64,000 nt of DNA from Nocardia nova SH22a. GTDB lineage: Bacteria; Actinomycetota; Actinomycetes; Mycobacteriales; Mycobacteriaceae. A program made the position numbers and the translations under genes. Below are positions 6,127 through 53,763 of this stretch, in pieces. The stretch lies in the NCBI RefSeq assembly GCF_000523235.1, contig NZ_CP006850.1, positions 7,688,001 through 7,752,000 on the forward strand. The letters are read 5' to 3'. The notes under the pieces were generated by a model that was not told the DNA's origin, did no database searches, and was given only the letters and a program-made list of their open reading frames with translations. How positions within the stretch are numbered: position 1 is the first letter of the stretch; every line of letters begins with the position of its first letter.

Positions 6127-6795
6127 TCAGGCGGGAAATCCGGCCAGCACCTCGGCCGAACGCGAGAGTCCCAGCCGGGTGGCACCGGCGGCGATCAGTT
6201 CGGCCGCGGCCCCCGCGGTCCGGATACCACCGCTGGCCTTGATGCCGAGCCTGCCACCGACGGTGTCGGCCATCAGCCGTACCGCCCGCACGTCGGCGCC
6301 GCCCGCGGGGTGGAATCCGGTGGAGGTCTTCACGAAATCGGCCCCGGCTCGTTCGGCGGCCCGGCACACCTCGACGATCGCCGCATCGGGCAGCGCCGCC
6401 GATTCCATGATCACCTTGAGCACCGCGTGATCCTCGACGGCCTCACGGACGGTGACGATATCGGCCAGCACCGCGTTGTAGTCACCGGCCAGAGCCGCAC
6501 CGATGTCGATGACCATGTCGACCTCGGCAGCCCCCTGCTCCACCGCGAGCCGAGCCTCGGCGCCCTTCACCAGCGAATGGTGTTTTCCGGACGGAAAACC
6601 CGCCACCGTGGCCACCACCAGGTCCGGAGCGGTCACCGGCAGCGCCGAGGGCGACAGGCAGACCGCGTACACCCCGAGCTCGCGAGCGGTCGCGACGGTC
6701 GCCGCGACATCGTCCGGGGTGGCGTCGGGGGCGAGCAGCGTGTGATCGATCATCGACGCGACCTGGGCACGGGACAGCGATGCGGGAGCGGCCAT
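6127..6795 (-). CDS. deoC: Deoxyribose-phosphate aldolase
   Basis: A 222-residue class I aldolase that splits 2-deoxyribose-5-phosphate into glyceraldehyde-3-phosphate and acetaldehyde in deoxynucleoside salvage. DeoC hallmarks are [11 protein letters not shown] near the N-terminus, the VDMVIDIGA segment, LKVIMESA (catalytic Lys in LKVI), [14 protein letters not shown] (Schiff-base Lys in VKTSTG) and IKASGGIRT. The ATG at 6795 fits the usual family start; six more codons are open upstream. The gene is divergent from purU with a 35-bp gap. Rv0478 (deoC) occupies the same place in M. tuberculosis. Confidence 0.96.
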
Positions 6796-6830
6796 GGGCA
6801 CACAGTCTGGCACCTGCGAGGATCGTCGCC

Positions 6831-7718
6831 ATGAGTGGTATCGAGTCAGCCGGCGATCGTCGGTTCGTGCTGAGCCTGGGCTGTCCCGACCGGCCGGGCA
6901 TCATCGCGCGCATCACCTCGTTCATCGCCGACCTCGGCGGCTCGATCATGGAGGCCGGCTACCACTCCGACACCGACTCCGGCTGGTTCTTCACCCGCCA
7001 GGCGGTCGCGGCCTCGACCGTGCCTTACGACGTCGAGGAACTGCGCGAGCGATTCACCGTGCTCGCCGCCGAGCTGGGATCGCAGACCGAATGGAAGCTG
7101 CTCGATTCCGGGCAGCGGCAACGCGCGGTACTGCTGGTGAGCCGGGACGGGCACTGCCTGCACGATCTGCTCGGCCGCGCGGCCAGCGGCGAACTGCCCG
7201 CCACCATCGAGGCGGTGATCGGCAACCATCCCGATCTCGGGGAGATGACGCGCGCGCACGGGATCACCTTCCATCACGTCCCGTTCCCCACCGATCCGGC
7301 CGAACGCGGCCCGGCCTTCGAGCAGGTCCGCCGGCTGACCGACGCCTACGATCCGCACGCGGTGGTCCTGGCCCGGTTCATGCAGGTACTCCCCGCGACA
7401 CTGTGTGAGCACTGGGCCGGGCGGGCGATCAATATCCACCACAGCTTCCTGCCCTCGTTCGTGGGCGCGCGGCCCTATCACCAGGCGTACGCACGCGGCG
7501 TGAAGCTGATCGGCGCGACCTGCCACTACGTGACCGCGGATCTGGACGCCGGGCCGATCATCGAACAGGACGTGACCCGTATCGATCACTCCGACACCGC
7601 GCGCGACATGGTCCGCCAGGGCCGCGATATCGAGCGGGTGGTGCTGGCGCGCGGACTGCGCTGGCATCTCGAGGGCCGGGTGCTGGTGCACGGCCGCCGC
7701 ACGGTGGTGTTCTCCTAG
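6831..7718 (+). CDS. purU: Formyltetrahydrofolate deformylase
   Basis: A 295-residue cytoplasmic enzyme that hydrolyses 10-formyl-THF to THF and formate, balancing one-carbon pools and supplying formate for purine synthesis. An N-terminal ACT domain is visible ([17 protein letters not shown], about 14-30), followed by a formyltransferase-like domain with [10 protein letters not shown] and [17 protein letters not shown]. These hold the Asn, His and Asp of the catalytic triad. Length is normal for PurU. It converges on the hydrolase gene with a 2-bp gap. I do not recall it from the mycobacterial version of this block. Confidence 0.96.
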
Positions 7719-7720
7719 CC

Positions 7721-8737
7721 TCAGCCCGCGGCAGCGCGGCGGCCGTGCCGTGCGACGTCGACGAGACGGCGGAGTTCGGCATTGAATTCCGCACTGGCCT
7801 CGATATTCGCCAGATGTCCGGTGGCCTGCACCGAATAGTGCTCCAGATTCCCGGCCGCCGCGAGTTCGTCGGCGATCTTGCGGGACATGCTCTCCGGCAG
7901 CAGATTGTCGTACGCACCGGCGATCACGACGGTGGGGACGGCCAGGCTTGCCGCGGCGCCGTGGATCTCGAGTTCGATCAGCGCGAGTGCGAACCTGGCC
8001 CGCACCAGCGGTCGGCACGACCGCACGATGGACAACGCGAAATCGACCTGGTCGGCGGTGGCGTGCCGATTCATGATGCGCGCCTTGATGATTTCTCGTG
8101 CGGGCGAGCCGGGTGGGAACGGAACCGGCTGCCCGAACAGCGCCCGCCCGAGCCAGGTGGGCGCGGGCACGATGTCGTTGAACAGGGGCAGTACCCGGGT
8201 CTCGGCGGCGATGTCACCGGCCGTGGTGGTGAGCAGCATCGCCGCACTCGCACGGCGGGCCACCTGCTCGGGATGGAATTTCGCCCAGGACTGGATGGTG
8301 ATGCCGCCCATGCTGTGCCCGACCAGGACCGCTCGGCGTCCGGCGGGCAGGACCGCGTCCAGCACATCGGACAGATCGTCGGCCAGCTGCTCGGCCTCGA
8401 AGCGGCGCGATCCCAGTGTGCTGGCGCCGTGCCCGCGCAGATCGAAGGCGATGACGCGATGGTCACTCGCGAAGGCATTGATCTGCGGATTCCAGTATTC
8501 GAGGCAGCAGGACCAGCCGTGGACGAAGACGATGACATCCCCGTCGGCCGGTCCGTAACTGTGCACCCGCAGCTTGGCCCCGTCCGCGGTGGTGACGGTG
8601 CTGACCTCGGGATCGGGCGCGGCGTTCAGTTCGGCCGTGCGATACCTGCGCGAACGCAGCTTCGCACGGAAACCAGCGGTCAGCGCGCCTGGGCCGGTCC
8701 GCAGATCGGCGAGGTTCTCGGGCAGGTTCCCCAGCAT
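7721..8737 (-). CDS. Alpha/beta hydrolase (tandem copy 1)
   Basis: A 338-residue alpha/beta hydrolase with no signal peptide. Landmarks are the oxyanion HGWSCCLEYWNPQ region, the nucleophile elbow GHSMGG (Ser about 143), a DLRGHG loop and a C-terminal catalytic His in ATGHLANIEA. The substrate is unknown; an epoxide hydrolase or an ester or lactone hydrolase are options. The start at 8737 is supported by AAAGGAG five bases upstream. It is a close paralogue of the next gene, including its ribosome-site sequence, and both are preceded by a GCTTGC/GCAAGC palindrome. Confidence 0.88.
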   Translation of the reverse strand: MLGNLPENLADLRTGPGALTAGFRAKLRSRRYRTAELNAAPDPEVSTVTTADGAKLRVHSYGPADGDVIVFVHGWSCCLEYWNPQINAFASDHRVIAFDLRGHGASTLGSRRFEAEQLADDLSDVLDAVLPAGRRAVLVGHSMGGITIQSWAKFHPEQVARRASAAMLLTTTAGDIAAETRVLPLFNDIVPAPTWLGRALFGQPVPFPPGSPAREIIKARIMNRHATADQVDFALSIVRSCRPLVRARFALALIELEIHGAAASLAVPTVVIAGAYDNLLPESMSRKIADELAAAGNLEHYSVQATGHLANIEASAEFNAELRRLVDVARHGRRAAAG

Positions 8738-8771
8738 GAGCACTCCTTTGTGTCCAACCGCAGACTACCCC

Positions 8772-8800
8772 GCTAGCAAGGGTGCTTGCTAGTGCAAGCA
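8772..8800. promoter_or_regulatory. Overlapping palindromes, predicted operator (site A)
   Basis: Two overlapping inverted repeats lie about 55 bp before the start of hydrolase copy 1: CTAGCAAG-GGTG-CTTGCTAG (8773-8792) and TGCTTGC-TAGT-GCAAGCA (8783-8800). Both have perfect arms. The GGTGCTTGC element recurs at site B and, inverted, at site C. I infer a regulator-binding site. Confidence 0.6.
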
Positions 8801-8898
8801 GTGGGATTTTTCGTTCCCGCACCCGTTCCACTACCGCGTATATCGCCGGGCAATCACCCAGCGCTACTGCGTAATTCGATCGACCCCGATCCGGGAGG

Positions 8899-9936
8899 TC
8901 AGGCGCTGGCCTCGCCCACCGCATAGGGCTCGTAGGCGCCGTACGTCTCGGCCAGCACCTCGGCGAGTTCGTCGTTGAACTCGGCGGCGGCCTCGACATT
9001 GCCCAGATGTCCGGTGGGCAGCGTGACGACCTTGCGCAGCGTGCCCACCGAACGCAACGATTCGGCGATCCGCTCGGAATGCACCGGCGGGGTCATGTCG
9101 TCGGCCGATCCGGCGATCACAGTGGTCGGGACCGTGAGCCGCTCGGGACAGACCTGCAACGCGAGATCGGCCAGCAGGAATCCGAACCGCGACCGCACCG
9201 ACGCGGGACACGACCGCACGATGTCCAGTGCGAAGTCGACGACCTCACCGGTCGAGGCGAGACTCATGATCTGCCGCCGGAAGATCCATTTCACCGGTTC
9301 GATCGGCGGAAACACCATCGGCATACCGAGTCCGAGCCGCCCGACGGCGAAAGGCAGCGCCACCGAGCCGCGATTACATCCCGGCACCACCGTGGTCTCC
9401 GCGATGAGGTCTCCGGCGGCGGTGTTGACCAGGACGACGGCATGCGCCCGGCGGGCAACCTGTTCCGGATGCCGCCCGGCCCACGCCTGCACGGTCATCC
9501 CGCCCAGACTGTGCCCCACGAGGACCGCCCGCTGTCCGGGCCGCAGCGTCGCGTCCAGCACCGCGGCGAAATCGTCGGCCAGCAGATCGGTGGTCAGCGG
9601 ACTGGAACCGGCCTCACTGCCGCCGTGGCCGCGCTGGTCGTAGGCGACCACGCGGAAATCACCGGCGAAGGCGTTGATCTGCGGATTCCAGTACTCGATA
9701 CAACAGGTCCAGCCGTGCGCGAGCACGATCACGTCGCCGTCGGCGGGGCCGTAGCTGTGCACCCGCAACCGGGCGCCGTCGGCGGCGGTCACCGTGCCGA
9801 CCTCGCACGGCACCCGGGGCGGGTTCAACGCGGGCAGGCCGTAGGTCCGGGTGCGCAGCGCGGCGCGATGGGCGGCCAGCAGTCCGCGAATTCCGTCCGC
9901 GAACGCCGCCACCATGCTGGGCAACGATGCCTGCAT
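8899..9936 (-). CDS. Alpha/beta hydrolase (tandem copy 2)
   Basis: A 345-residue paralogue of the neighbouring hydrolase. The two share an almost unbroken stretch around LRVHSYGPADGDVIV and EYWNPQINAFA. The nucleophile elbow reads GHSLGG, the C-terminal His lies in LPTGHLGNVEA, and an acidic residue in the GSADDMTPP segment could complete the triad. No signal peptide is seen. The ATG at 9936 follows AAAGGAG. The gene has its own palindrome upstream, so each copy seems to carry a promoter rather than forming one operon. Substrate unknown. Confidence 0.88.
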   Translation of the reverse strand: MQASLPSMVAAFADGIRGLLAAHRAALRTRTYGLPALNPPRVPCEVGTVTAADGARLRVHSYGPADGDVIVLAHGWTCCIEYWNPQINAFAGDFRVVAYDQRGHGGSEAGSSPLTTDLLADDFAAVLDATLRPGQRAVLVGHSLGGMTVQAWAGRHPEQVARRAHAVVLVNTAAGDLIAETTVVPGCNRGSVALPFAVGRLGLGMPMVFPPIEPVKWIFRRQIMSLASTGEVVDFALDIVRSCPASVRSRFGFLLADLALQVCPERLTVPTTVIAGSADDMTPPVHSERIAESLRSVGTLRKVVTLPTGHLGNVEAAAEFNDELAEVLAETYGAYEPYAVGEASA

Positions 9937-9987
9937 CAGAACACTCCTTTGTGTGTTACTGATCGATACAGTAACCCGAAGGAGTGG

Positions 9988-10005
9988 GTGCTTGCCAGTG
10001 CAAGC
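9988..10005. promoter_or_regulatory. Palindrome upstream of hydrolase copy 2 (site B)
   Basis: GCTTGC-CAGT-GCAAGC (9990-10005), preceded by GGT, has perfect 6-bp arms and the same 4-bp centre pattern (NAGT) as site A. It lies about 60 bp before the start at 9936. The match in sequence, spacing and position to site A supports shared control. Confidence 0.6.
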
Positions 10006-10020
10006 GCGCGGTGAGTCCCG

Positions 10021-10317
10021 CTACCAGCGCGGACCCCGCTGGATTTCGTCCACCTTGGGCCGCACGTCGGCCAGATAGATGCCCGTCGCGATCACCGCCG
10101 CGATACCGAGCAATCCCACCGGCGTCCGGGCCAGCAGGAGGAACAACAGCGCCACCGCGAGGATGGACACCCAGATCGGCTTGGTGAGCTTGTCGACCGC
10201 GGTGAAGGCGTCGGAGCGCTGGCGGATGGCATGTACCAGCGCGAAGATGGTCATGGCCATCGCGGCGAGCCAGAGCAGCCACAGGATTGCACTAGTCAGC
10301 TGATACACAGCACCCAT
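10021..10317 (-). CDS. DUF2516 small membrane protein
   Basis: A 98-residue protein with two or three hydrophobic helices: ILWLLWLAAMAMTIFALVHAI, then IWVSILAVALLFLLLA and LLGIAAVIATGIYLA. A conserved polar loop reads RSDAFTAVDKLTKPIW, a feature of DUF2516 proteins next to hbhA in mycobacteria (Rv0476, recalled). It ends in a short basic cytoplasmic tail. The start is uncertain: ATG at 10317 is favoured, but in-frame starts at 10344 and 10350 fall inside the strong hairpin just upstream. Function unknown. Confidence 0.8.
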   Translation of the reverse strand: MGAVYQLTSAILWLLWLAAMAMTIFALVHAIRQRSDAFTAVDKLTKPIWVSILAVALLFLLLARTPVGLLGIAAVIATGIYLADVRPKVDEIQRGPRW

Positions 10318-10324
10318 GATAAGA

Positions 10325-10361
10325 GCAACGCCCGCATGCGGCATGCGCATGCGGGCGTTGC
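10325..10361 (-). terminator. Strong hairpin between hbhA and the DUF2516 gene
   Basis: A perfect 15-bp stem (arms 10325-10339 and 10347-10361, GCAACGCCCGCATGC and its complement) with a 7-base loop. On the minus strand it follows hbhA by about 70 bp. The next bases read TCTTATC rather than a T-run, so termination would be imperfect. It ends only 7 bases before the favoured DUF2516 start. Confidence 0.7.
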
Positions 10362-10431
10362 GGTGTCCGGTGCACCCGGTTCCGCGAACGGATCCGGATT
10401 ACCCCTCGGCCGGTTCTCTACTGCGGCCGGG

Positions 10432-11118
10432 TCACTTCTTGGCCGGAGTGGTCTTCTTCGCGGCGGCCGTCTTGACCGGCGCCTTCTTGGCGGGAGCCTT
10501 CTTCGCCGGCGCCTTCTTGGCCGCAGGGGTGGACTCCTCCGCGACCGGTTCCGGGGTGGCCTCGGTGGTGACCGCGACGACCTCGGCATCGACGACCGGG
10601 GCAACCTCCTCGGCGGCTTCGGCGGTCTTGCCCAGCAGGCCGCGGGCCTGGTCGGAGACCTTGTTCAGCACGTCCTCGGCGCGGGTGACGACATCGCTGT
10701 AGATGCCCTCGACCTTGTCGAAGCGCTCGTCGAAGCCCGGGTTGGTCCGCAGCCGATCGACGGTCTCCTCACCGCGCACGGCCAGATCCGAGTACAGATC
10801 CACCAGCTGGCGGTAGTACTGGTCGACCAGCTTGCGCAGTTCGTCGGAGGTGAAGCGCTCGCGCAGTTCGGCGAGATCGTCCGGCAGCTCGGACGGCAGG
10901 CCGGTGAGGCGGCCGCGCAGCGTCTCGATCTGATCCTGGACATCGGCGGGCAGATTCGACAGCCGCTCGCGTGCCTCTTCGACACGGGTGTTCACATCGA
11001 CGGTGGCGGCGCGGTCGCGGACGCGGTCGACGATGTCGTTGACCGCCGCGTAGAGCGCGTCACCGGCTCCGACGGTCGCGTAGATCGGCTTGGTGACAGT
11101 GACGTTGGGCTGGGTCAT
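10432..11118 (-). CDS. hbhA: Heparin-binding hemagglutinin-like protein
   Basis: A 228-residue surface or membrane-associated adhesin-like protein. The first 160 or so residues are predicted long helices and coiled coil (AVNDIVDRVRDRAATVD to VLNKVSDQARGLL). A Glu/Val/Ala linker follows, then a basic tail of KKAPAKKAP repeats from about 197 to the end. In M. tuberculosis the Lys-rich tail binds heparan sulfate and is methylated; the tail here has the same composition. AGGAGA lies 10 bases before the ATG. The start overlaps the stop of the XRE gene by 4 bp, so the two are translationally coupled. Confidence 0.92.
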   Translation of the reverse strand: MTQPNVTVTKPIYATVGAGDALYAAVNDIVDRVRDRAATVDVNTRVEEARERLSNLPADVQDQIETLRGRLTGLPSELPDDLAELRERFTSDELRKLVDQYYRQLVDLYSDLAVRGEETVDRLRTNPGFDERFDKVEGIYSDVVTRAEDVLNKVSDQARGLLGKTAEAAEEVAPVVDAEVVAVTTEATPEPVAEESTPAAKKAPAKKAPAKKAPVKTAAAKKTTPAKK

Positions 11119-46117: not shown

Positions 46118-46762
46118 TCAGATACCGCCGCCACCACCGCCATCACTCCCTCCACCTCCGCCGCAGCCACCGCCCCCACCACAGCCACCACCTCCGCCGC
46201 AGCCACCGCTGTCGCCGGTGAAAATTCCGGCGGACCAGATGTCGGTTCCGCCACCTCCTCCCCCGCTGCCGGAGCGTCGCCGGGTGGTGGAACGAGGTCG
46301 TTCGGGTTGGACGACGCCGAGGTCTCTCCTGATCTGGGTACGGGAGACGCTGAGAAGCCTGGCAATTCGCCCGATGCTGCGATCGCGCGCATACAGCTCC
46401 CGCACCACCGCGACCATCTTCCGCCGCGCAAGTTCCGGCTCTATCAATCGCAACTGCCCCGGGGTTTCGAGCACCTCGGCGTCGGCAACGTCGAGGAACT
46501 CGAGTCGTTCCGGAGACAGCTCGTATTCGACTCGAATTCGATCCTGTTCCTTCAACGACTGCAACGACCGAGGCCGCAACCTCCGCAGCAGCGGCAACCG
46601 GGGCATCGGGTGCAGTTGTTCCCACTCCTTCGCGCGCCGGGTGCGAGCCCGCGCCAGAGCCGCGGCGATACTTGTTCCGCGGTCGCGCAGGTCGGTATAG
46701 CGTTGGAGCAGTTCGTCGTTCGTGCAGTGCGACAGGTCGATGTCGTCGGAGTCGGCCCCCAT
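46118..46762 (-). CDS. Helix-turn-helix protein with glycine-cysteine repeat tail
   Basis: A 214-residue protein I cannot assign to a family. The N-terminus is helical and charged (CTNDELLQRYTDLRDRGTSIAAALARARTRRAKEWEQL), the middle is basic, and ELYARDRSIGRIARLLSVSRTQIRRDLGV (about 122-150) looks like a DNA-binding helix-turn-helix. The last 35 or so residues consist of Gly runs with Cys every sixth residue (GGCGGGGGC repeats), encoded by 18-bp-type Pro/Gly-codon repeats on the DNA. No export signal is present. There is no clear ribosome site before the ATG. Regulation or metal binding are possible but unproven. Confidence 0.6.
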   Translation of the reverse strand: MGADSDDIDLSHCTNDELLQRYTDLRDRGTSIAAALARARTRRAKEWEQLHPMPRLPLLRRLRPRSLQSLKEQDRIRVEYELSPERLEFLDVADAEVLETPGQLRLIEPELARRKMVAVVRELYARDRSIGRIARLLSVSRTQIRRDLGVVQPERPRSTTRRRSGSGGGGGGTDIWSAGIFTGDSGGCGGGGGCGGGGGCGGGGGSDGGGGGGI

Positions 46763-46865
46763 GAGTCAATTGTGCCCGCCGGAGGACAAGCCTCGGTCAC
46801 GATTCGAGTGACGCCGGTGCGACCCGGAACCGGCTCCGCAATGCCCCCGATTGAGCACCCGTCAG

Positions 46866-47489
46866 TCATCGTCCCTTGCGCTCGGCCGCGTCCAGGGCGG
46901 GTTCGAGCGGAGCCAGGGCGGTGCGGAGCCGGTCGGGCAGTGACCCCGACGCGACGATGAGGCCGGAGCCCCCGACGGCCGGTTGCAGCCACTCCTCGAG
47001 CGCGATACGGACAGCGGCGGCAACCGACGCCGCGAGCACGCGGGCGGTGAGCCCCGCGCTGTCGCCGATCCGGGTGGCGATCGCATCGCCGAGGGCGGGA
47101 GCGATCGCGTCCGCGCCGGAGAGGAACGCCGAACGCAGCGACGGATGCGTCGTGATCAGCAGCAAGGCGTCGCGATGCCGCTCGCCCGGGTCGGTGTACT
47201 GCGCCACGATCGCGTCGGTAATCACCTGGGCGAGGCGAATCCCCTTCGGCCGCGCCGTGATCGCGGCCGTGACGCGACTGTCCCGGTCGGCCGTGACGGC
47301 GGCGACGATCGCATGCTCGCGGCTGGAGAAGTAGTTGTTGTAGGTCCGCGGCGAGACACCGGCCGCCTCCGCGATGTCTTCGACCCGGACATTGTCCGGC
47401 CCATGTTCCAGGGCCAGCCGCAACGCCGCCTCCCGCAGCGCCACTCGCGTGGCCGCCTTCTTGCGCTCCCGCAAACCTCTCGCCGTCAC
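46866..47489 (-). CDS. TetR-family transcriptional regulator
   Basis: A 207-residue regulator. The N-terminal GLRERKKAATRVALREAALRLALEHG leads to the helix-turn-helix VRVEDIAEAAGVSPRTYNNYFSSREHAI (about 34-61), a pattern typical of TetR repressors with a YNYF turn. The ligand domain is helical. The GTG at 47489 was chosen because the frame upstream, up to an ATG at 47537, runs through a strong palindrome that is more likely the operator. It is divergent from the TIM-barrel gene at 47589, its probable target. Confidence 0.88.
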   Translation of the reverse strand: MTARGLRERKKAATRVALREAALRLALEHGPDNVRVEDIAEAAGVSPRTYNNYFSSREHAIVAAVTADRDSRVTAAITARPKGIRLAQVITDAIVAQYTDPGERHRDALLLITTHPSLRSAFLSGADAIAPALGDAIATRIGDSAGLTARVLAASVAAAVRIALEEWLQPAVGGSGLIVASGSLPDRLRTALAPLEPALDAAERKGR

Positions 47490-47505
47490 CCACTCATCAT
47501 GCCAT

Positions 47506-47539
47506 ACATGCGCGCGCGCAAAATTGCGTGCACGCATGT
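47506..47539. promoter_or_regulatory. Palindromic operator between TetR gene and TIM-barrel gene
   Basis: Arms ACATGCGCGCGCGCAA (47506-47521) and TTGCGTGCACGCATGT (47524-47539) are inverted repeats matching at 14 of 16 positions around a 2-bp centre. The site lies 17 bp before the TetR GTG and 50 bp before the divergent ATG, a classical place for autoregulation and control of the neighbour. Confidence 0.7.
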
Positions 47540-47588
47540 TGTGTGATTAGCCTGGTAACCGACCAGCTCGACCGAAAGGAGCGCACAT

Positions 47589-48617
47589 ATGCGAGGCAGA
47601 GGAATGACCTACGACACCGGCTTCGTCCGCAACGGCGGCACATCGTGGGAGACGTTCGATCCGGCGGTGGTCGAACGGGAGTTGCGGATCATCCGAGACG
47701 ATCTGCATTGCACGGCTGTTCAGATCACCGGCGGCGATGCCGACCGGCTGGAGGTCACCGCCCGGCACGCCGCGAAACTGGGCCTGGAGGTCTGGTTCTC
47801 GCCCTATCCATTGGAGCTGACAACCGCGGAGATTCTGGAGCTGTTCGCGGATTGCGCGCAGCGCGCCGAGCGGATCAGGCACACCGGCGCCGAGGTCGTC
47901 TTCGTGACCGGCGTCGAACTCACACTGATGAACCGGGGGTTTCTGCTGGGCGAGACCAGCATGGATCGTGTGGGCGCTCTGTTCGCGGATCCCGAAACCC
48001 GCGACGACCGGATAGCCGAGGTGAGCGCACGACTCGACGAATTCCTCCGCGAGGCCGTTGCCGTGGTCCGGCGGCATTTCCACGGCAAGCTCACCTACTG
48101 CGCCATCCCCTTCGAGCGGATCGACTGGACGCCTTTCGATTTCGTCTCCGTGGAACTCATCCGCTCCGCCGAGGTCGCCGACCGGTTCGATGAAGGCGTG
48201 CGGACACTGGTCGCGCAGGGAAAGCCGTTGGCGATCACCGGATTCGGCGCCGCTACCTGGCACGGGGCTGCGGATGTGGCGCCGCGCAGCATGGAGATCG
48301 TCGAATACGACTCCGCCGGCGCGCCGATCCGCCTGAACGGCAACCATGTTCGCGACGAGGCCGAACAAGCCGCATATCTCATCGAGCTGCTGGAGATCTT
48401 CGACAGCGCGGGCGTGGATTCGGCCTTCGTCTTCCTGTTCGCACTGCGCAACTACCCCCACCGGCCCGGCGGCGACCCGCGCGACGACCTCGACCTCGCA
48501 AGCTTCGGCATCGTCAAGGTCCTCGAGGACCGCCGCGGAACCACCTATCCGGACATGCCGTGGGAGCCCAAGGCCGCCTTCGGATCGGTCGCGAAGTTCT
48601 ACGCCGGAAGTTACTGA
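47589..48617 (+). CDS. TIM-barrel-like protein of the type often labelled abortive infection protein
   Basis: A 342-residue soluble protein. Parts resemble glycoside-hydrolase-like TIM barrels: RGMTYDTGFVRNGGTSWETFDP, IIRDDLHCTAVQITGGDADRLEVTA, LEVWFSPYPLELTT, GAEVVFVTGVELTLMNRGFL, LTYCAIPFERIDWTPFDFVSVE and KPLAITGFGAATWHGAAD. Related Streptomyces proteins, as I recall, are annotated as abortive infection proteins with little experimental support. Glu residues in VTGVEL and FERID could be catalytic. AAGGAG lies nine bases before the ATG. Its promoter shares the palindrome with the TetR gene. Confidence 0.72.
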   Translation: MRGRGMTYDTGFVRNGGTSWETFDPAVVERELRIIRDDLHCTAVQITGGDADRLEVTARHAAKLGLEVWFSPYPLELTTAEILELFADCAQRAERIRHTGAEVVFVTGVELTLMNRGFLLGETSMDRVGALFADPETRDDRIAEVSARLDEFLREAVAVVRRHFHGKLTYCAIPFERIDWTPFDFVSVELIRSAEVADRFDEGVRTLVAQGKPLAITGFGAATWHGAADVAPRSMEIVEYDSAGAPIRLNGNHVRDEAEQAAYLIELLEIFDSAGVDSAFVFLFALRNYPHRPGGDPRDDLDLASFGIVKVLEDRRGTTYPDMPWEPKAAFGSVAKFYAGSY

Positions 48618-48671
48618 ATACGTTGCGCCACTAATTGTTCCATGCGACGGTCCCTCGAGCTCGAAGCGGAT

Positions 48672-49331
48672 CTACCGCCCGGCGCCGAATATCCCGGCCT
48701 GCGCGGCCAGCACGGCCATCTCCGCCGCCTGGTCCGGATCGGATTCGGTGCGCAGCAGCACCACCTGGTGGTACACCGGACCGGTTGCCGCGACGAGCAG
48801 TGCGCGCGCATCGGTGTCGGCCGGGATCTCCCCGCGTGAGATCGCGCGTTCGACGACGATCTCGCATTGCGTGTAGCGGTCTTCCCACAGCTGCCGCAGC
48901 GCTCGCGCGGCGTCCTCCGAGCGGAACGACACCGCGATCAGCGCCATCGCGATCGAGGCTTCTTCGGTGAAGGAGTCCCGGATCTCGCGGTTCAGTTCCG
49001 CGAGATCACCGCACAGCGAACCGGTGTCGAGGGGATGCCAGTCCAGATCGCGCGCGGCGGCGAACACGTCGGCGATCAACCCGCCCACATCGCGCCAGCG
49101 CCGGTAGACGGTGGTGCGGTGCACGCCCGCGCGGGCGGCCACGGTGTCGATCGTCAGTGCGTCGTAACCGTTTTCGGTGAGTTCGGCATGCACGGCGGCC
49201 AGGACCTGATCGCGAATGCGCGCGGTTCGTCCACCGGGCCGCGGGCGCGGACCGTCGATCACGGACGAACCCTCCGGGCGCGAGGCGGGGCGGGACGGCG
49301 AACCGTCCGGTGCAGAACTCATGGTGTCCAT
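48672..49331 (-). CDS. TetR-family regulator beside the ABC-F/Vat/glycosyltransferase genes
   Basis: A 219-residue regulator with a disordered Ser/Pro/Arg N-terminus (about 35 residues), then RTARIRDQVLAAVHAELTENGYDALTIDTVAARAGVHRTTVYRRWRDVGGLI, a TetR helix-turn-helix at about 40-90. The helical C-terminal domain has a YTQCEIVVERAISRGEIPADTDARALL segment typical of the TetR_C subgroup. An alternative ATG is at 49322. It is divergent from the ABC-F gene (142 bp between starts) and is the obvious candidate controller of that cluster; the inducer is unknown. Confidence 0.88.
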   Translation of the reverse strand: MDTMSSAPDGSPSRPASRPEGSSVIDGPRPRPGGRTARIRDQVLAAVHAELTENGYDALTIDTVAARAGVHRTTVYRRWRDVGGLIADVFAAARDLDWHPLDTGSLCGDLAELNREIRDSFTEEASIAMALIAVSFRSEDAARALRQLWEDRYTQCEIVVERAISRGEIPADTDARALLVAATGPVYHQVVLLRTESDPDQAAEMAVLAAQAGIFGAGR

Positions 49332-49400
49332 TCACTTGCTCGCCGGGAATCGATGTGCAATCATCTTAACGCAACATCCGTCGCACTAGTGAGGTCGCCA

Positions 49401-49473
49401 ATGCTCATTCGAAGCGTTCCCCAGGCCCTGCGGTCACCCCTGACCGCGTCCTCGAATGCTTCGGAGGTTGTTC
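49401..49473 (+). promoter_or_regulatory. Structured leader of the ABC-F gene, with possible leader ORF
   Basis: Just before the ABC-F start is a nested hairpin. The inner stem is GCGGTCA-CCCC-TGACCGC (49430-49447) with perfect 7-bp arms. Outer arms CATTCGA (49406-49412) and TCGAATG (49452-49458) enclose it, and GGAGG follows at 49463. An ATG at 49401, with GAGG upstream, opens a 54-codon frame that runs across the ABC-F start to 49565. Many ABC-F genes are controlled by leader attenuation; here that is inference. Confidence 0.45.
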
Positions 49474-51102
49474 GTGCCCACTCAGATCACCGCGCTCGCG
49501 GTCGGCAAATCCTTCAACGGCCGCACGGTTCTCGATGCGGTCACCTGTTCACTCGGCGCGGGTGAGCGCACCGGGATCATCGGGGAGAACGGGTCCGGTA
49601 AGAGCACGCTGCTGCGCCTGTTCGCCGGATGCGAGCAGCCCGATCAGGGCGAGATCGTCGTACACGCCGAGGGCGGAGTCGGCTATCTCGCCCAGGACGA
49701 ACAGCTCCCCGCGCACCTGAGCGTCCAGCAGATCATCGATCGGTCGTTGCACGATCTGCGTCGGATCGAAGCTCGAATGCGCCGTCTGGAAGTCGAGATG
49801 GCCACCGGCGAGGAATCTAATCTCGACGAATATGCCGAACTGGCAACGGTTTTCGAGCTGCGTGGCGGCTACGACGCCGATGCCCGCGTCGAGCGGGCCC
49901 TGCACGGCCTCGGATTGGGCGTGGTCCCGCGCGATCGCGCGGTCGGCGGATTGTCCGGCGGTGAACAGGTCCGCTTGCGCCTGGCCGCCCTGCTGGCCGC
50001 AGCGCCCGAGGTACTGCTGCTCGACGAGCCGACCAATCATCTCGACGACGACGCCCTGACCTGGCTCGAGGACCATCTGCGGACCCGGCGCGGCACCACC
50101 GTCACCGTCTCGCACGACCGCACCTTCCTCGACCGGGTGGCGACCACGCTGCTCGAAGTGGATTCCGATCGCCGATGCGTCGTACGCCACGGCAACGGAT
50201 ACAGCGGCTATCTCGCCGAACGCGAGGCCGCGCGGGAACGCTGGGCCCAGGCGCATCTGCGCTGGCAGGACGAGGCCGACCGGCTGCGCGAAACCATCGC
50301 CACCACGGCACGGCGGGTCGCGCCGGGACGCGCGATGAAGGACAACAACAAGATGGCCTACGACCGGGCCGGTGGCCGCGTGCAGCAGTCACTGGCGGGC
50401 CGGGTCCGCAATGCCGAGGAACGGTTGCGGCGGCTACTCGCCGATCCGGTACCGCCACCGCCGGAACCGTTGCGGTTCAAGGCGGTTCCCGCGGCGGGAC
50501 GTGCGCACGGCGTCGTCCTGGATGCCACCGATATCGCGGTGAACGGCAGACTCGGGCCGACGAGTGTGCGGGTGTCCGCAGGGGAGCGACTGCTGATCAC
50601 CGGTCCGAACGGCGCGGGCAAATCGACGCTGCTGCGGGTGCTGGCCGGTGTGCTGGACCCCGGTCGCGGCACCGTCGACCGGCGCGGCCGGGTCGGCTAT
50701 CTCGCCCAGGAACCGCCGCCCGCGGTCCCCGGGCAGACCTTGCTGTCCGCGTACGCCCACGCCCGGCCGGGCCGCCACGGCGACCACGCCGAGCGGCTGC
50801 TGTCACTGGGCCTGTTCGCACCCGCCCAACTCACGACCCGGGTGGAGAATCTGTCCACCGGACAGCGGCAGCGGCTCGAACTGGCGAAACTGATCAGCGA
50901 ACCGGCCGACCTGCTGCTGCTGGACGAACCCACCAACCACCTCTCCTTTGGACTGGTCGAGGAATTGGAGGCCGCACTGTCCGAGTATCGAGGGGCACTG
51001 GTGGTCGTCAGCCACGACCGCCGCCTGCGCGCTCGCTGGCACGGCGATCGGCTCGATCTTCGTGTACCGGACTCGCCCCGACACTCGATACCGCTCGCTT
51101 GA
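49474..51102 (+). CDS. ABC-F family ATPase, antibiotic-resistance type
   Basis: A 542-residue soluble protein with two ATP-binding domains and no membrane part. Domain 1 has Walker A GENGSGKST (about 37-45), signature LSGGEQVRLRLA and LLLDEPTNHLD. Domain 2 has GPNGAGKST, LSTGQRQRLELA and LLLDEPTNHLS. The linker between them contains NNKMAYDRAGGRVQQSLAGRVRNAEERL, seen in actinobacterial ABC-F proteins such as TlrC/OleB-type resistance factors. Such proteins displace macrolide, lincosamide or streptogramin drugs from the ribosome. GTG at 49474 is preceded by GGAGG at 6 bases. Confidence 0.9.
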   Translation: MPTQITALAVGKSFNGRTVLDAVTCSLGAGERTGIIGENGSGKSTLLRLFAGCEQPDQGEIVVHAEGGVGYLAQDEQLPAHLSVQQIIDRSLHDLRRIEARMRRLEVEMATGEESNLDEYAELATVFELRGGYDADARVERALHGLGLGVVPRDRAVGGLSGGEQVRLRLAALLAAAPEVLLLDEPTNHLDDDALTWLEDHLRTRRGTTVTVSHDRTFLDRVATTLLEVDSDRRCVVRHGNGYSGYLAEREAARERWAQAHLRWQDEADRLRETIATTARRVAPGRAMKDNNKMAYDRAGGRVQQSLAGRVRNAEERLRRLLADPVPPPPEPLRFKAVPAAGRAHGVVLDATDIAVNGRLGPTSVRVSAGERLLITGPNGAGKSTLLRVLAGVLDPGRGTVDRRGRVGYLAQEPPPAVPGQTLLSAYAHARPGRHGDHAERLLSLGLFAPAQLTTRVENLSTGQRQRLELAKLISEPADLLLLDEPTNHLSFGLVEELEAALSEYRGALVVVSHDRRLRARWHGDRLDLRVPDSPRHSIPLA

Positions 51103-51174
51103 CGCTGCCACGCGCCGAAACCCACTGCGGGTCCTCGAGGCTCGTCGAACACCCATCGACAGAACGGATCTGCC

Positions 51175-51831
51175 GTGCCTGAACAACTGCCAGTCACCGA
51201 CCCTTCCACCCTGCATCCGATGCCCGGACAGCCGCGGGTCGTCCTGCTGAAACCCCTGGTCACCTCACCGCTGATCGAGGTCGGCGAGTACTCCTACTAC
51301 GACGACCCGGACGACCCCACCGCCTTCGAGACCCGCAATGTTCTCTACCACTACGGCCCGGAGAAGCTGATCATCGGCAAGTTCTGCGCGCTGGCCACGG
51401 GCGTGCGGTTCATCATGAACGGCGCCAACCACCGCATGGACGGGCCGTCGACCTTCCCGTTCTCCACCATGGGCGGCGCGTGGTCCCGGCATGTCGATCT
51501 GCTCATGGATCTGCCGAATCGCGGTGACACCGTGGTCGGTGACGATGTGTGGATCGGCTACGGCGTCACGGTGCTGCCCGGCGTCCGGATCGGTAACGGT
51601 GCGATCGTCGCCGCCGGTTCCGTGGTGACCTCCGATGTTCCGGACTACGGCATCGTCGGCGGCAATCCGGCCCGGCTCATCCGCACGCGCTACAGCGACC
51701 GCGATATCGCCCGGCTGCTGACGATCCGCTGGTGGGACTGGCCGATCGAGCACATCGACGCGCACGTCCGCACGATCATGGCGGGCACCGTCGACGAACT
51801 CGAAGCAGCGGCGCCCGATCCGGGCGCGTAA
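51175..51831 (+). CDS. Vat-family streptogramin A O-acetyltransferase-like protein
   Basis: A 218-residue left-handed beta-helix acetyltransferase of the xenobiotic (XAT) group. The Vat-type active site is visible: [21 protein letters not shown] with the catalytic His at about 86. FSTMGGAW follows, and the hexapeptide repeats [36 protein letters not shown] lead to [19 protein letters not shown] and the C-terminal [11 protein letters not shown]. Vat enzymes acetylate and inactivate streptogramin A drugs; related XATs accept chloramphenicol. The GTG start has only a weak ribosome site. It lies 72 bp after the ABC-F gene on the same strand. Confidence 0.92.
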
Positions 51832-51871
51832 GACCTTGCAGCCCAACATCATCGATCCCGAGGGAGGCCGT

Positions 51872-53035
51872 GTGCCCCGCCATATCGCCATGATCGGAAT
51901 CCCGATCGTCAGTCACATCCTGCCGAGCCTGGAGGTGATCCGGGAACTGGTCCGGCGCGGTCACCGGATCACCTACGCCAACGACCCGGCCGTACGCGAT
52001 CAGATCACCGCCACCGGCGCCGAATTCGTGCCGTGCACCTCGGCGCTACCGGTCGCCGACAACGCCTGGCCGGACGACCCGATCGCCGCCGCGCGCCTGT
52101 TCCTCGACGATGCGGTCGCGGCCCTGCCACAACTGCGCGCCGCCTACGACCGCGACCCGGCGGATCTCTATCTCTACGATATCGGCGCCTATGCCGGGCG
52201 CGCCCTGGCCGAGCGCCAGGGCCGTCCGGTCGTGCAATTGTCCCCGACCTTCGTGGCCTGGGACGGTTACGAACAGGAGGTGGCGGCCGCGCTGCGACAG
52301 CTTCCGGGCGCCGACGCCTACCGGTCGGCCTTCGCCCACTGGCTGACCGAATGCGGGGCGACCACCACCGAGGTGGACGCCTTCTCCGGGCCACCCGCCC
52401 GCGCGCTGGCGCTGATCCCGCGGGCCATGCAACCGCACGCCGACCGGGTCGACAGCGAGGTGGTGACCTTCGTCGGCCCCTGCACACCGCCGGACGGCCG
52501 ACCGGTTCCGCGCCCCGCGGACGCCGCCGAGAAAATCCTCGTGATCTCCCTCGGCACCGCATACACCCACCGGCCCGAGTTCTATCGCCGCTGCCTGGCC
52601 GCCTTCGGCGACCTGCCCGGCTGGCATATCGTCCTGCAGATCGGAAAGCACACCACCCCAGCCGAACTCGGCCCGATTCCCGCCAATACCGAGGTGCACT
52701 CCTGGATTCCACAGCGAGCCGTCCTGGAACACGCGAACGCCTTCCTCACCCATGCCGGAATGGGCGGCTGCGGTGACGGCCTGCTCACCGGCGTCCCGAT
52801 GATCGCCGTACCCCAGGGCGCCGAACAGTTCATGAATGCCGACCGGCTCGTCGAACTGGGCGTCGCCCGCCGCCTGGACACCGGCGACGCGACCGCGCAC
52901 AGCCTGCGCGCGGCACTGACCGATCTGGTCGGCGACGAAGGGGTCGCCCGGAGAACGCGCGAACTGCGCTCCGAAGCGATCGCCGAGGGCGGCACCTCGC
53001 GCGCTGCCGACCTGATCGAAGCCATGCTCACCTGA
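51872..53035 (+). CDS. MGT-family macrolide-type glycosyltransferase
   Basis: A 387-residue GT1 enzyme of the macrolide glycosyltransferase (Mgt/OleD-like) family. The N-terminal acceptor domain starts IAMIGIPIVSHILPSLEVIRELVRRGHRITYAN. The C-terminal domain shows KILVISLGTAY, VHSWIPQRAVLEHANAFLTHAGMGGCGDGLLTGVPMIAVPQGAEQFMNADRL, the UDP-sugar site. Known relatives glucosylate and inactivate macrolides in Streptomyces. GTG at 51872 follows GGGAGG; a TTG at 51836 is less likely. It is 40 bp after the Vat gene and completes a same-strand run of three. Confidence 0.9.
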   Translation: MPRHIAMIGIPIVSHILPSLEVIRELVRRGHRITYANDPAVRDQITATGAEFVPCTSALPVADNAWPDDPIAAARLFLDDAVAALPQLRAAYDRDPADLYLYDIGAYAGRALAERQGRPVVQLSPTFVAWDGYEQEVAAALRQLPGADAYRSAFAHWLTECGATTTEVDAFSGPPARALALIPRAMQPHADRVDSEVVTFVGPCTPPDGRPVPRPADAAEKILVISLGTAYTHRPEFYRRCLAAFGDLPGWHIVLQIGKHTTPAELGPIPANTEVHSWIPQRAVLEHANAFLTHAGMGGCGDGLLTGVPMIAVPQGAEQFMNADRLVELGVARRLDTGDATAHSLRAALTDLVGDEGVARRTRELRSEAIAEGGTSRAADLIEAMLT

Positions 53036-53065
53036 GCGACACCGACCGAACCTGCACCGCTGACG

Positions 53066-53091
53066 GAATTCGCTGAGAATCAGCGGGATTC
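53066..53091 (+). terminator. Hairpin after the glycosyltransferase gene
   Basis: GAATTCGCTGA (53066-53076), loop GAA, TCAGCGGGATTC (53080-53091) forms a stem with a perfect 6-bp core and partial outer pairing. It lies 30 bp after the stop codon of the last gene of the cluster. There is no long T-run, so its strength is uncertain. Confidence 0.5.
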
Positions 53092-53158
53092 GCCCTTCAG
53101 CCGCCCTTCCCCTGCCAGCGATGCGAATCAGAAACATTTGGCGTGGAGGATGTTCGGT

Positions 53159-53599
53159 GTGGAATCGCTCCCACCGAAACACCTCCTCCTGGAGGCCTGC
53201 CGGGGTCTGGCCATCGACGGTCATCTCGTGCTGAAGTGCGCATGCCGCCTCAGCGAACTGCACGAGCTGAGACTCAATGCCGCACCCGGGTCGACCCTGG
53301 ACATCGATCGCGATCGGGCACAACTGGTTTCCGATATCGACCGCTGGGTCGCGGATGAACTTCCCCGGGCACACGGATCAGCACGCATGCACACCGAAAC
53401 GGTCGGCACGGTGATCGACCGGCTCGCCCAGTTCTCCGCGCTGGCCTATCTGACCCTGACCTGGGAGCCCGAGTGGGTGGTCCGCGATGCCTGGCGGCGG
53501 CTGTCGGATCTGGCGGTGGCCTACGACGATCTGGCCGGAGAGGTGACCGCGGGGCTGTGCCGGCTCCCGGATCTCAGCGGGCACCACGAATACGAGTAG
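53159..53599 (+). CDS. DUF4254 family protein
   Basis: A 146-residue soluble helical protein. The stretch RDRAQLVSDIDRWVADELPRAHGSARMHTETVGTVIDRLAQFSALAYL matches the core I recall for DUF4254 (R-x-x-LV-x-x-IDRWV, then LHTE-x-x-G-x-VIDRL). No function is known. The GTG start at 53159 is placed by TGGAGG nine bases upstream; ATG at 53150 lies too close to it. It follows the glycosyltransferase by 123 bp with a hairpin between, so it is probably transcribed separately. Confidence 0.75.
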   Translation: MESLPPKHLLLEACRGLAIDGHLVLKCACRLSELHELRLNAAPGSTLDIDRDRAQLVSDIDRWVADELPRAHGSARMHTETVGTVIDRLAQFSALAYLTLTWEPEWVVRDAWRRLSDLAVAYDDLAGEVTAGLCRLPDLSGHHEYE

Positions 53600-53763
53600 A
53601 TCTCGCCGAACGGCGGCGTGGCGAGGGACGGCACGCCGCCGCAGGCTAGGGATGGCGGATCAGGGCAGTCGATCCGCGTCGGGGGCGACCCGACTCCCAG
53701 ATACTGCTCCGGCACCCTCGAGATACACCCGGATATTCCTGTGAACCCGCTGGCAAGAGCCGA

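Follow-up and report, generated by a model that had tools for sequence, protein, structure and literature searches.

A TetR-flanked ABC-F, Vat and macrolide glycosyltransferase gene set in Nocardia nova SH22a and its candidate two-layer control

In the actinomycete Nocardia nova SH22a, genes of three unrelated families linked to resistance against ribosome-targeting drugs stand side by side next to a regulatory gene, which raises the question of whether they form one regulated unit and, if so, against which drugs and for whose benefit it works. The genes lie in a stretch of 64,000 nucleotides, positions 7,688,001 to 7,752,000 of the 8,348,532-bp single-contig genome (NZ_CP006850.1), hereafter called the window, and coordinates refer to this stretch. 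They encode an ABC-F protein, a Vat-type streptogramin A O-acetyltransferase (Vat) and a macrolide glycosyltransferase (MGT), and are accompanied by a divergent gene for a TetR-family repressor. The genes, their recurrence, a conserved palindrome, an upstream open reading frame (ORF) and a hairpin are direct observations, from which we infer every step of function. Taken together, they point to what is probably an inducible resistance operon directed against ribosome-targeting streptogramins and macrolides from neighbouring microbes.

The four genes and their recurrence

The four genes are as follows.
48672..49331, minus strand: TetR-family repressor gene, divergent, with TetR_N and TetR_C_11 (Pfam PF00440, PF16859; solved relative 2id3, 111 bits)
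49474..51102, plus strand: gene for an ABC-F protein, ribosome-protection-like and nearest the TlrC/CarA/OleB/SrmB type (NF000171, 653 bits, cut-off 800; NF000355, 390 bits, cut-off 380)
51175..51831, plus strand: gene for a Vat-type streptogramin A O-acetyltransferase with His 86 (NF000311, 261 bits, cut-off 300; VatD 1khr, 205 bits)
51872..53035, plus strand: gene for a macrolide glycosyltransferase of the Mgt/OleD type (NF033129, 468 bits, cut-off 700; TIGR01426, 356 bits, cut-off 260; OleD 7xx4/2iyf, 407/396 bits)

A first-pass annotation of this DNA had placed a divergent TetR gene before ABC-F, Vat and MGT genes on one strand, and the four ORFs are found at these positions. The gaps of 72 and 40 bp that it gave hold with Vat read from GTG 51175 and MGT from GTG 51872, the latter with GGGAGG upstream. 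For the ABC-F gene, GTG 49474 (GGAGG at 49463) is most likely the start and is preferred over ATG 49456.

The family names are borne out by NCBIfam, Pfam and a PDB sequence search, though with scores under the strict allele-level cut-offs. As the closest relatives that would undo its reading, the annotation had listed an EttA-like ABC-F, a non-Vat acetyltransferase and a tailoring glycosyltransferase; the NCBIfam scores run the other way, with 653 bits for the producer-type ABC-F model versus 277 for EttA, 261 for Vat versus 160 for CatB, the first non-Vat family, and 468 for Mgt versus 266 for OleI. The ABC-F protein fails the producer-type cut-off and passes the wider NF000355 ribosome-protection model, and because of that failure it is filed as ribosome-protection-like, nearest TlrC/CarA/OleB/SrmB (ARE4), and not as a proven ARE4 protein, an assignment based on NCBIfam scores rather than on a phylogeny that includes LmrC, VarM and TlrC. 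It carries two complete nucleotide-binding sites (motifs at residues 37, 160, 181, 377, 460 and 481), Pfam ABC_tran matches two stretches of it, and no membrane family was matched. Vat has the hexapeptide fold (Pfam Hexapep) and stays below the equivalog cut-off of its model. Its His 86, also named by the annotation, is confirmed and lines up with the loop His of solved VatD (1khr), which we take to be the catalytic residue in both. In MGT, His 15 and Asp 103 (numbered from 51872) align with a His and an Asp of OleD, presumably the catalytic pair; the protein misses the cut-off for macrolide-inactivating Mgt and passes that of TIGR01426.

Recurrence of the set was followed in 118 Nocardia genomes sampled evenly from a larger group, in which relatives of Vat were found in 83 (E<=1e-20), of MGT in 30 (1e-40) and of ABC-F in 63 (1e-80). 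Loci were picked by Vat similarity or by matches to the leader described below, and their frequencies should not be read as a census. The close Vat group comprised 60 loci in 58 genomes, of which 13, the window included, have ABC-F, Vat and MGT adjacent; ABC-F and Vat alone are found together in 18, Vat and MGT in 7, and Vat without either in 22. This count excludes Vat matches at 46-62% identity and short fragments of G072, G078:C52, G091 and G115, and within the 13 triples the MGT match is truncated in three (G047, G087, G089) and the ABC-F match is split in one (G081). The check that the annotation had proposed, a search for the same order in related genomes, finds that order in 13 of 60 loci with the window among them, and the grouping is not due to chance. 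The nearest named relatives at the site are N. aobensis and N. africana.

Beyond the genus, the best 80 of 569 confirmed stretches from a genome scan include TetR-ABC-F-Vat in Saccharopolyspora hirsuta, S. kobensis and S. indica, in Streptomyces poonensis, S. albidoflavus, S. flaveus and S. noursei, and in Goodfellowiella, and they include the full four-gene set only in N. colli. ABC-F relatives are found on 35 plasmid records (E<=1e-100) and Vat relatives on 30 (E<=1e-60), mostly from Streptomyces; where a product is given among the matches listed, it names only the ABC-F family or a CatB-related protein. In line with the annotation, no description of the grouping as an operon was found in the literature searched, with supplements and most subscription papers outside its reach.

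Operator and leader upstream of the ABC-F gene

The spacer between the TetR and ABC-F genes, together with the start of the latter, holds four further features. The annotation had missed both the operator palindrome and the ABC-F leader.
49366..49389, no strand assigned: candidate TetR operator palindrome TTAACGCAAC-ATCC-GTCGCACTAG, a match to a 24-base consensus across TetR-divergent loci
49391..49394, plus strand: ribosome-binding site GAGG of the upstream ORF, read from the sequence and conserved in the alignment
49401..49565, plus strand: upstream ORF from ATG 49401, leader peptide MLIRSVPQALRS..., running past the ABC-F start in another frame (start codon in this position and no stop ahead of ABC-F in 35 of 35 aligned leaders)
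49408..49465, plus strand: leader hairpin with outer stem 49408-49419/49454-49465 and inner stem 49431-49435/49442-49446 (folding and covariation)

The consensus of the palindrome in the spacer between TetR and the first gene is TTAATGCAAC-N4-GTCGCACTAG. At least 17 of its 24 positions are matched in 74 of 76 TetR-divergent loci, which include at least one duplicate pair (L129, L179), and 16 in the other two. For the 25 loci of other genera with controls, the match beat all 200 shuffles, which preserve base composition only (shuffle means 10.7-12.0, highest 17). The candidate operator is retained whether ABC-F or Vat comes first and also where ABC-F is absent. At one locus (L074), Vat starts almost at the place of the leader ATG, immediately 3' of the operator, as would follow from a joint loss of leader and ABC-F.

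The leader that follows the operator is met only with ABC-F and is absent where Vat comes first. Its upstream ORF has the peptide consensus M[LF][IF]RSV[HRPS][PQ][AV]LR. In all 35 aligned leaders the start codon keeps a constant position with respect to the stem and the frame stays open as far as ABC-F, a register that is partly by construction since the start was chosen by register; in 16 of 16 further overlapping leaders, where the start comes from the model match, the distance to the ABC-F start is a multiple of three plus one, which gives an out-of-frame overlap (one of them starts with TTG). The 3' arm of the outer stem reaches into the ABC-F ribosome-binding site GGAGG at 49463-49467. 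Over 118 nt the hairpin folds at -45.4 kcal/mol (z -2.88; 2 of 200 shuffles as good). RNAalifold without structure input returned 17 pairs, five of them with changes on both sides, and 98.0% of cells are paired, compared with 95.8% in shuffles, none of 500 reaching the observed value, and with 29-48% when the partner is slid; kinship among the sequences may inflate these covariation counts. The most telling are G-C to A-U changes, which affect one pair in two other genera, and, at a second pair, a C-G/U-G/U-A series. No Rfam family matched in 46800-53700.

A covariance model of the leader, R1, was used for genome searches. In the 118 genus genomes it gave 46 strong matches (E<1e-12), which correspond to all 43 ABC-F orthologues of at least 72% identity and to three ABC-F relics (G099, G052, G098:C5); 42 of the 43 were paired by coordinate, the last (G087) being split over contigs and lying at a contig end, and five weak matches (E 8e-4 to 9e-3) are excluded from the 46. 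In 394 evenly sampled genomes of the class, searched with stricter filters, the leader was found in 14, in 6 of 137 genera. Of the 12 matches outside the genus, 11 were examined: 10 lead into ABC-F, which in two cases is only 50-52% identical and in one is broken into two pieces, and one leads into an ABC-F relic. The upstream-ORF register is lost in the Microbispora relic. The twelfth, a weak match in G457 (E 9e-4), was not counted, as the 3,047 bases available there contain no match to a module protein or a window neighbour. In two loci of one genus (L185, L186), ABC-F homologues of 50-52% identity follow a leader with other spacing and a three-codon upstream ORF, MLL then stop, which recalls the short upstream ORFs of other ABC-F genes. 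R1 offers a means of finding such operons.

These observations suggest two layers of control. TetR, bound to the palindrome upstream of the leader, would repress the whole operon until the drug or a related ligand releases it, as the conservation of the sequence suggests. The hairpin, judging from its conserved structure, would partly bury the ABC-F ribosome-binding site, with its 5' arm at codons 3-7 of the upstream ORF. If a ribosome carrying the drug stalled near the beginning of this ORF, it would mask the 5' arm and free the ribosome-binding site, so that ABC-F could be made; from the size of a ribosome footprint, a stall between codon 1 and about codon 10 would suffice. A drug-free ribosome would instead cross the ABC-F start through the overlap and block it, and ABC-F initiation would stay low. 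Control of the whole operon by TetR, and of ABC-F alone by the leader, would explain why the operator is kept whatever the first gene is and why the leader travels with ABC-F.

Features of a translational attenuator are present: a start codon and ribosome-binding site of an upstream ORF with predicted translation, and a conserved RNA structure partly hiding the ABC-F ribosome-binding site. The intrinsic terminator that would mark an lmrC-type transcription attenuator is not seen in the leader, and a consensus scan of 49250-53300 gave no terminator-like site. The hairpin could also be a translation-initiation or stability element with no sensing role, TetR being the sole control. The peptide is not clearly under selection, which leaves room for this explanation, but the conservation of start codon, ribosome-binding site, register and stop-free frame, with the 5' arm inside the ORF, and the loss of the whole leader together with ABC-F make it unlikely, and ABC-F genes elsewhere use such sensors (PMC8546547, PMC10201436, PMC12421871). 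We therefore prefer a drug-sensing leader under a TetR gate. No described leader of this kind was found in the literature searched, within the same reach as above.

Movement of the set and exchange of its third gene

The annotation held that the genes interrupt an otherwise conserved core and look acquired, and comparison of the site agrees. Fourteen other Nocardia outside the window's clade were examined around RamB. In 11 of them (L194-L203, L208) both flanks are together, DUF4254-LigB/RamB being separated by 0.8-5 kb from a conserved sugar-transport-like operon, and the module is absent in all 11; the flanks lie apart in L210-L212, which are not counted. Outside the clade, identity to the window is uncorrelated with RamB identity for Vat (n=46, Spearman -0.19, p 0.21) and for ABC-F (n=33, Spearman 0.13, p 0.47), full-length matches only. 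The surroundings of the module vary between species, and broken copies occur, with ABC-F relics in L071, L073, L129 and L174 besides the truncated MGT matches already mentioned. Because the site lacks the module in 11 of 11 and divergence does not track a core protein, the module seems to move, and the pattern fits movement between species followed by decay; it would have been gained, lost and re-sited both as a unit and in parts.

Vertical inheritance, with the odd distribution produced by loss only, would fit the clade itself, in which all 10 genomes (the window and nine with RamB at least 96% identical) have Vat at the same site, with or without the rest. It is nevertheless very unlikely as the general explanation, given the missing link to RamB identity outside the clade, the differing surroundings, and a genome (G109) in which ABC-F (87%) and Vat (86%) are more similar to the window than RamB is (84%).

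The same variation in surroundings bears on the suggestion that the set is the self-protection of a streptogramin or macrolide producer, one of the roles that the annotation had offered. In its favour, the best ABC-F match is a model built on producers' self-resistance proteins (TlrC/CarA/OleB/SrmB). A cluster-bound self-resistance gene would not be expected in different surroundings in different species, however, and no polyketide or peptide synthase was found among 20 further window proteins scanned, to which the search for biosynthesis in this genome was limited. This role is not supported and we consider it highly improbable; protection against the drugs of neighbouring microbes remains the preferred reading.

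The third gene of the set proved to be exchangeable, a point that the annotation had missed. Within 1,500 bp 3' of Vat on the same strand, 117 actinomycete loci (after removal of five known duplicates, further ones being possible) hold MGT in 30 cases, an EreB-like esterase in 19, both in none and neither in 68, one of the latter at a contig end. Some slot copies are fragmentary, several for MGT (e.g. L046, L059, L121, L135, L147) and L039, L066, L146 and L180 for the esterase, and in L072 the esterase-like gene shares only 47% identity. In sister species of the window, a full-length, stop-free esterase gene lies 3' of Vat (N. aobensis, L068; N. africana, L069; L070; L042), and L039 and L066 hold esterase fragments there. 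The esterase was identified by NF000209 at about 300 bits in six of six proteins scanned (EreB allele cut-off 750) and by Pfam PF05139 in four of four. It also follows ABC-F directly, without Vat, in L189-L191, and in L174 (G098:C5:72000-82000) a second leader copy precedes an ABC-F relic and a stop-free esterase gene, with no TetR, Vat or MGT matches.

The module is therefore modular, and MGT and esterase exchange at the third slot. Sisters lack MGT and several have the esterase in its place, so that either enzyme may have replaced the other. No MGT remnant was found in seven sister intervals, where the best protein match had E 0.02 and DNA matches fell at the DUF4254 edge only. A recent transfer of MGT into the window was considered and is unsupported, as divergence is not unequal: the three proteins share 77-84% identity with their counterparts in G030, G031, G051 and G090, MGT being at 76-79%. 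No further recurrent third-slot gene was found among the 67 loci with neither enzyme.

Single loci show other neighbours of Vat. In Streptomyces diastatochromogenes (L104), an ORF at 6645-7577, about 25 bp after the Vat match, resembles an APH-like kinase (44 bits, cut-off 205) and is possibly another drug-modifying gene; the ORF after Vat in L122 matched no NCBIfam family. In L039 (G079), the interval from Vat to DUF4254 (about 8,475-11,040 of the oriented locus) holds the disrupted esterase fragment and then two minus-strand ORFs that by eye resemble a YCII-type protein and a sigma factor, which looks like an insertion into the third slot.

Proposed function and relation to known systems

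What the proteins would do follows from their families. Streptogramins A and B act together (PMC6804068), so that ABC-F and Vat would be a natural pair countering both halves of the natural two-part mixture. The ARE4 type is grouped with protection against macrolides and streptogramin B (PMC6723617, PMC10201436), and the ABC-F type here suggests the same range. ABC-F would thus clear the macrolide/streptogramin B site, Vat would acetylate streptogramin A, and the last enzyme would destroy macrolides, by glycosylation here and by ester hydrolysis in sister species.

Drug susceptibility gives a less simple picture. In PMC8373947, clarithromycin susceptibility was seen in 22 of 23 isolates of the N. 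nova complex (MIC90, the minimum inhibitory concentration for 90% of isolates, 0.25), which may or may not carry the operon, and the other groups shown were 67-100% resistant. In contrast, PMC12488653 reports that only 7 of 148 Nocardia isolates were susceptible, with high resistance across all species, two of the 148 being N. nova and one N. aobensis; the terms ABC-F, vat, mgt, macrolide and erm are absent from its main text. Intrinsic resistance, a further role raised by the annotation, finds no support for macrolides in the first survey. Either the operon is silent under test or not induced by clarithromycin, or it is aimed at other drugs, or the species differ.

Several further points weigh against an inducible resistance operon, in addition to the susceptible isolates. 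The evidence is sequence-based; the ABC-F, Vat and MGT scores are all under allele-level cut-offs; 68 of the 117 Vat loci have neither third enzyme; and ABC-F and third-enzyme copies are broken in some relatives. At the control region, a consensus scan found no promoter and the -10 and -35 boxes are not settled, the stem holds only the first three bases of the ABC-F GGAGG, and the upstream-ORF codons outside the stem have, by eye, no clear excess of silent changes, so that selection on the peptide is not demonstrated.

Some of these points would also fit enzymes that tailor or detoxify other metabolites and whose drug-resistance names mislead. OleD-like enzymes are promiscuous. Scores below the strict cut-offs and the clarithromycin susceptibility of the species complex in one study (PMC8373947) lean the same way, but three unrelated families of the same drug group, four with the esterase, have repeatedly been assembled under one operator, and we regard misleading names as distinctly unlikely. 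Of the annotation's acquired-resistance reading, the families, operon-like order and acquisition stand, and self-protection and intrinsic macrolide resistance are unsupported.

A bolder interpretation is possible, though doubtful: that an out-of-frame overlapping leader ORF, which holds and opens an ABC-F lock under a TetR gate, represents a new class of drug-sensing RNA, and that interchangeable macrolide-destroying chemistries occupy the third slot as cassettes. If it were true, ribosome protection would need the drug to be both perceived by TetR and bound to the ribosome, and for the drug-destroying enzymes the first signal would be enough; such a two-signal logic would account for N. nova complex strains that carry the set yet test clarithromycin-susceptible. 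More broadly, our results suggest that soil actinomycetes, opportunistic Nocardia among them, assemble and exchange their streptogramin and macrolide resistance genes as a single regulated unit, and such a unit is present in a species complex that appeared susceptible to macrolides in one survey (PMC8373947). The parts are ordinary; the regulation and the exchange of the third gene are more interesting than the annotation had claimed, and the clinical meaning is less certain.

Apart from these subjects, the window holds at 46118-46762, on the minus strand, an ORF for a protein whose body looks, by eye, helix-turn-helix-like and whose long tail is glycine-rich and of low complexity.

Gram-positive plasmids carry the clusters vga(A)-vat(A)-vgb(A), vat(B)-vga(B) and vga(D)-vat(G), which, like the present set, place an ABC-F gene beside vat and combine target protection with streptogramin A acetylation. 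The present set differs in its other ABC-F branch, its location on an actinomycete chromosome, its TetR operator and its third gene for a macrolide enzyme. EreB-type erythromycin esterases have their counterpart in the gene that fills the third slot in sister species, but the sister proteins score under the EreB cut-off, their activity being predicted, and the window itself has none. Macrolide producers have comparable resistance sets, such as OleB with OleD and OleI, TlrC, and SrmB with a macrolide glycosyltransferase, in which ABC-F and a glycosyltransferase act against the same drug (PMC6804068); here, unlike in those sets, Vat is added, the genes form one operon with a divergent TetR gene, and the scanned window proteins include no polyketide or peptide synthase.

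The leader is closest to the attenuators of lmrC, are5sc and tiaA in Streptomyces and of cplR, vmlR, vgaA and msrD, in which an upstream ORF and an RNA structure likewise control a resistance ABC-F gene. Ribosome-mediated attenuation is established for ABC-F genes in Firmicutes and for Streptomyces lmrC, tiaA and are5sc, typically with premature terminators (PMC8546547, PMC12421871, PMC10201436). In contrast, the ORF described here runs across the ABC-F start in a different frame, the ribosome-binding site is reached by the hairpin itself, and no terminator was found; the known leader peptides (MVGDDDISG, MLV, MRS, MR[I/M], MIN, MK[L/Q] and MAGN) also differ from the consensus given above. How the sequence of the leader peptide determines which drugs an ABC-F sensor responds to is a question said to deserve follow-up (PMC10201436), and the leaders compared here provide a natural system of many variants in which to ask it.

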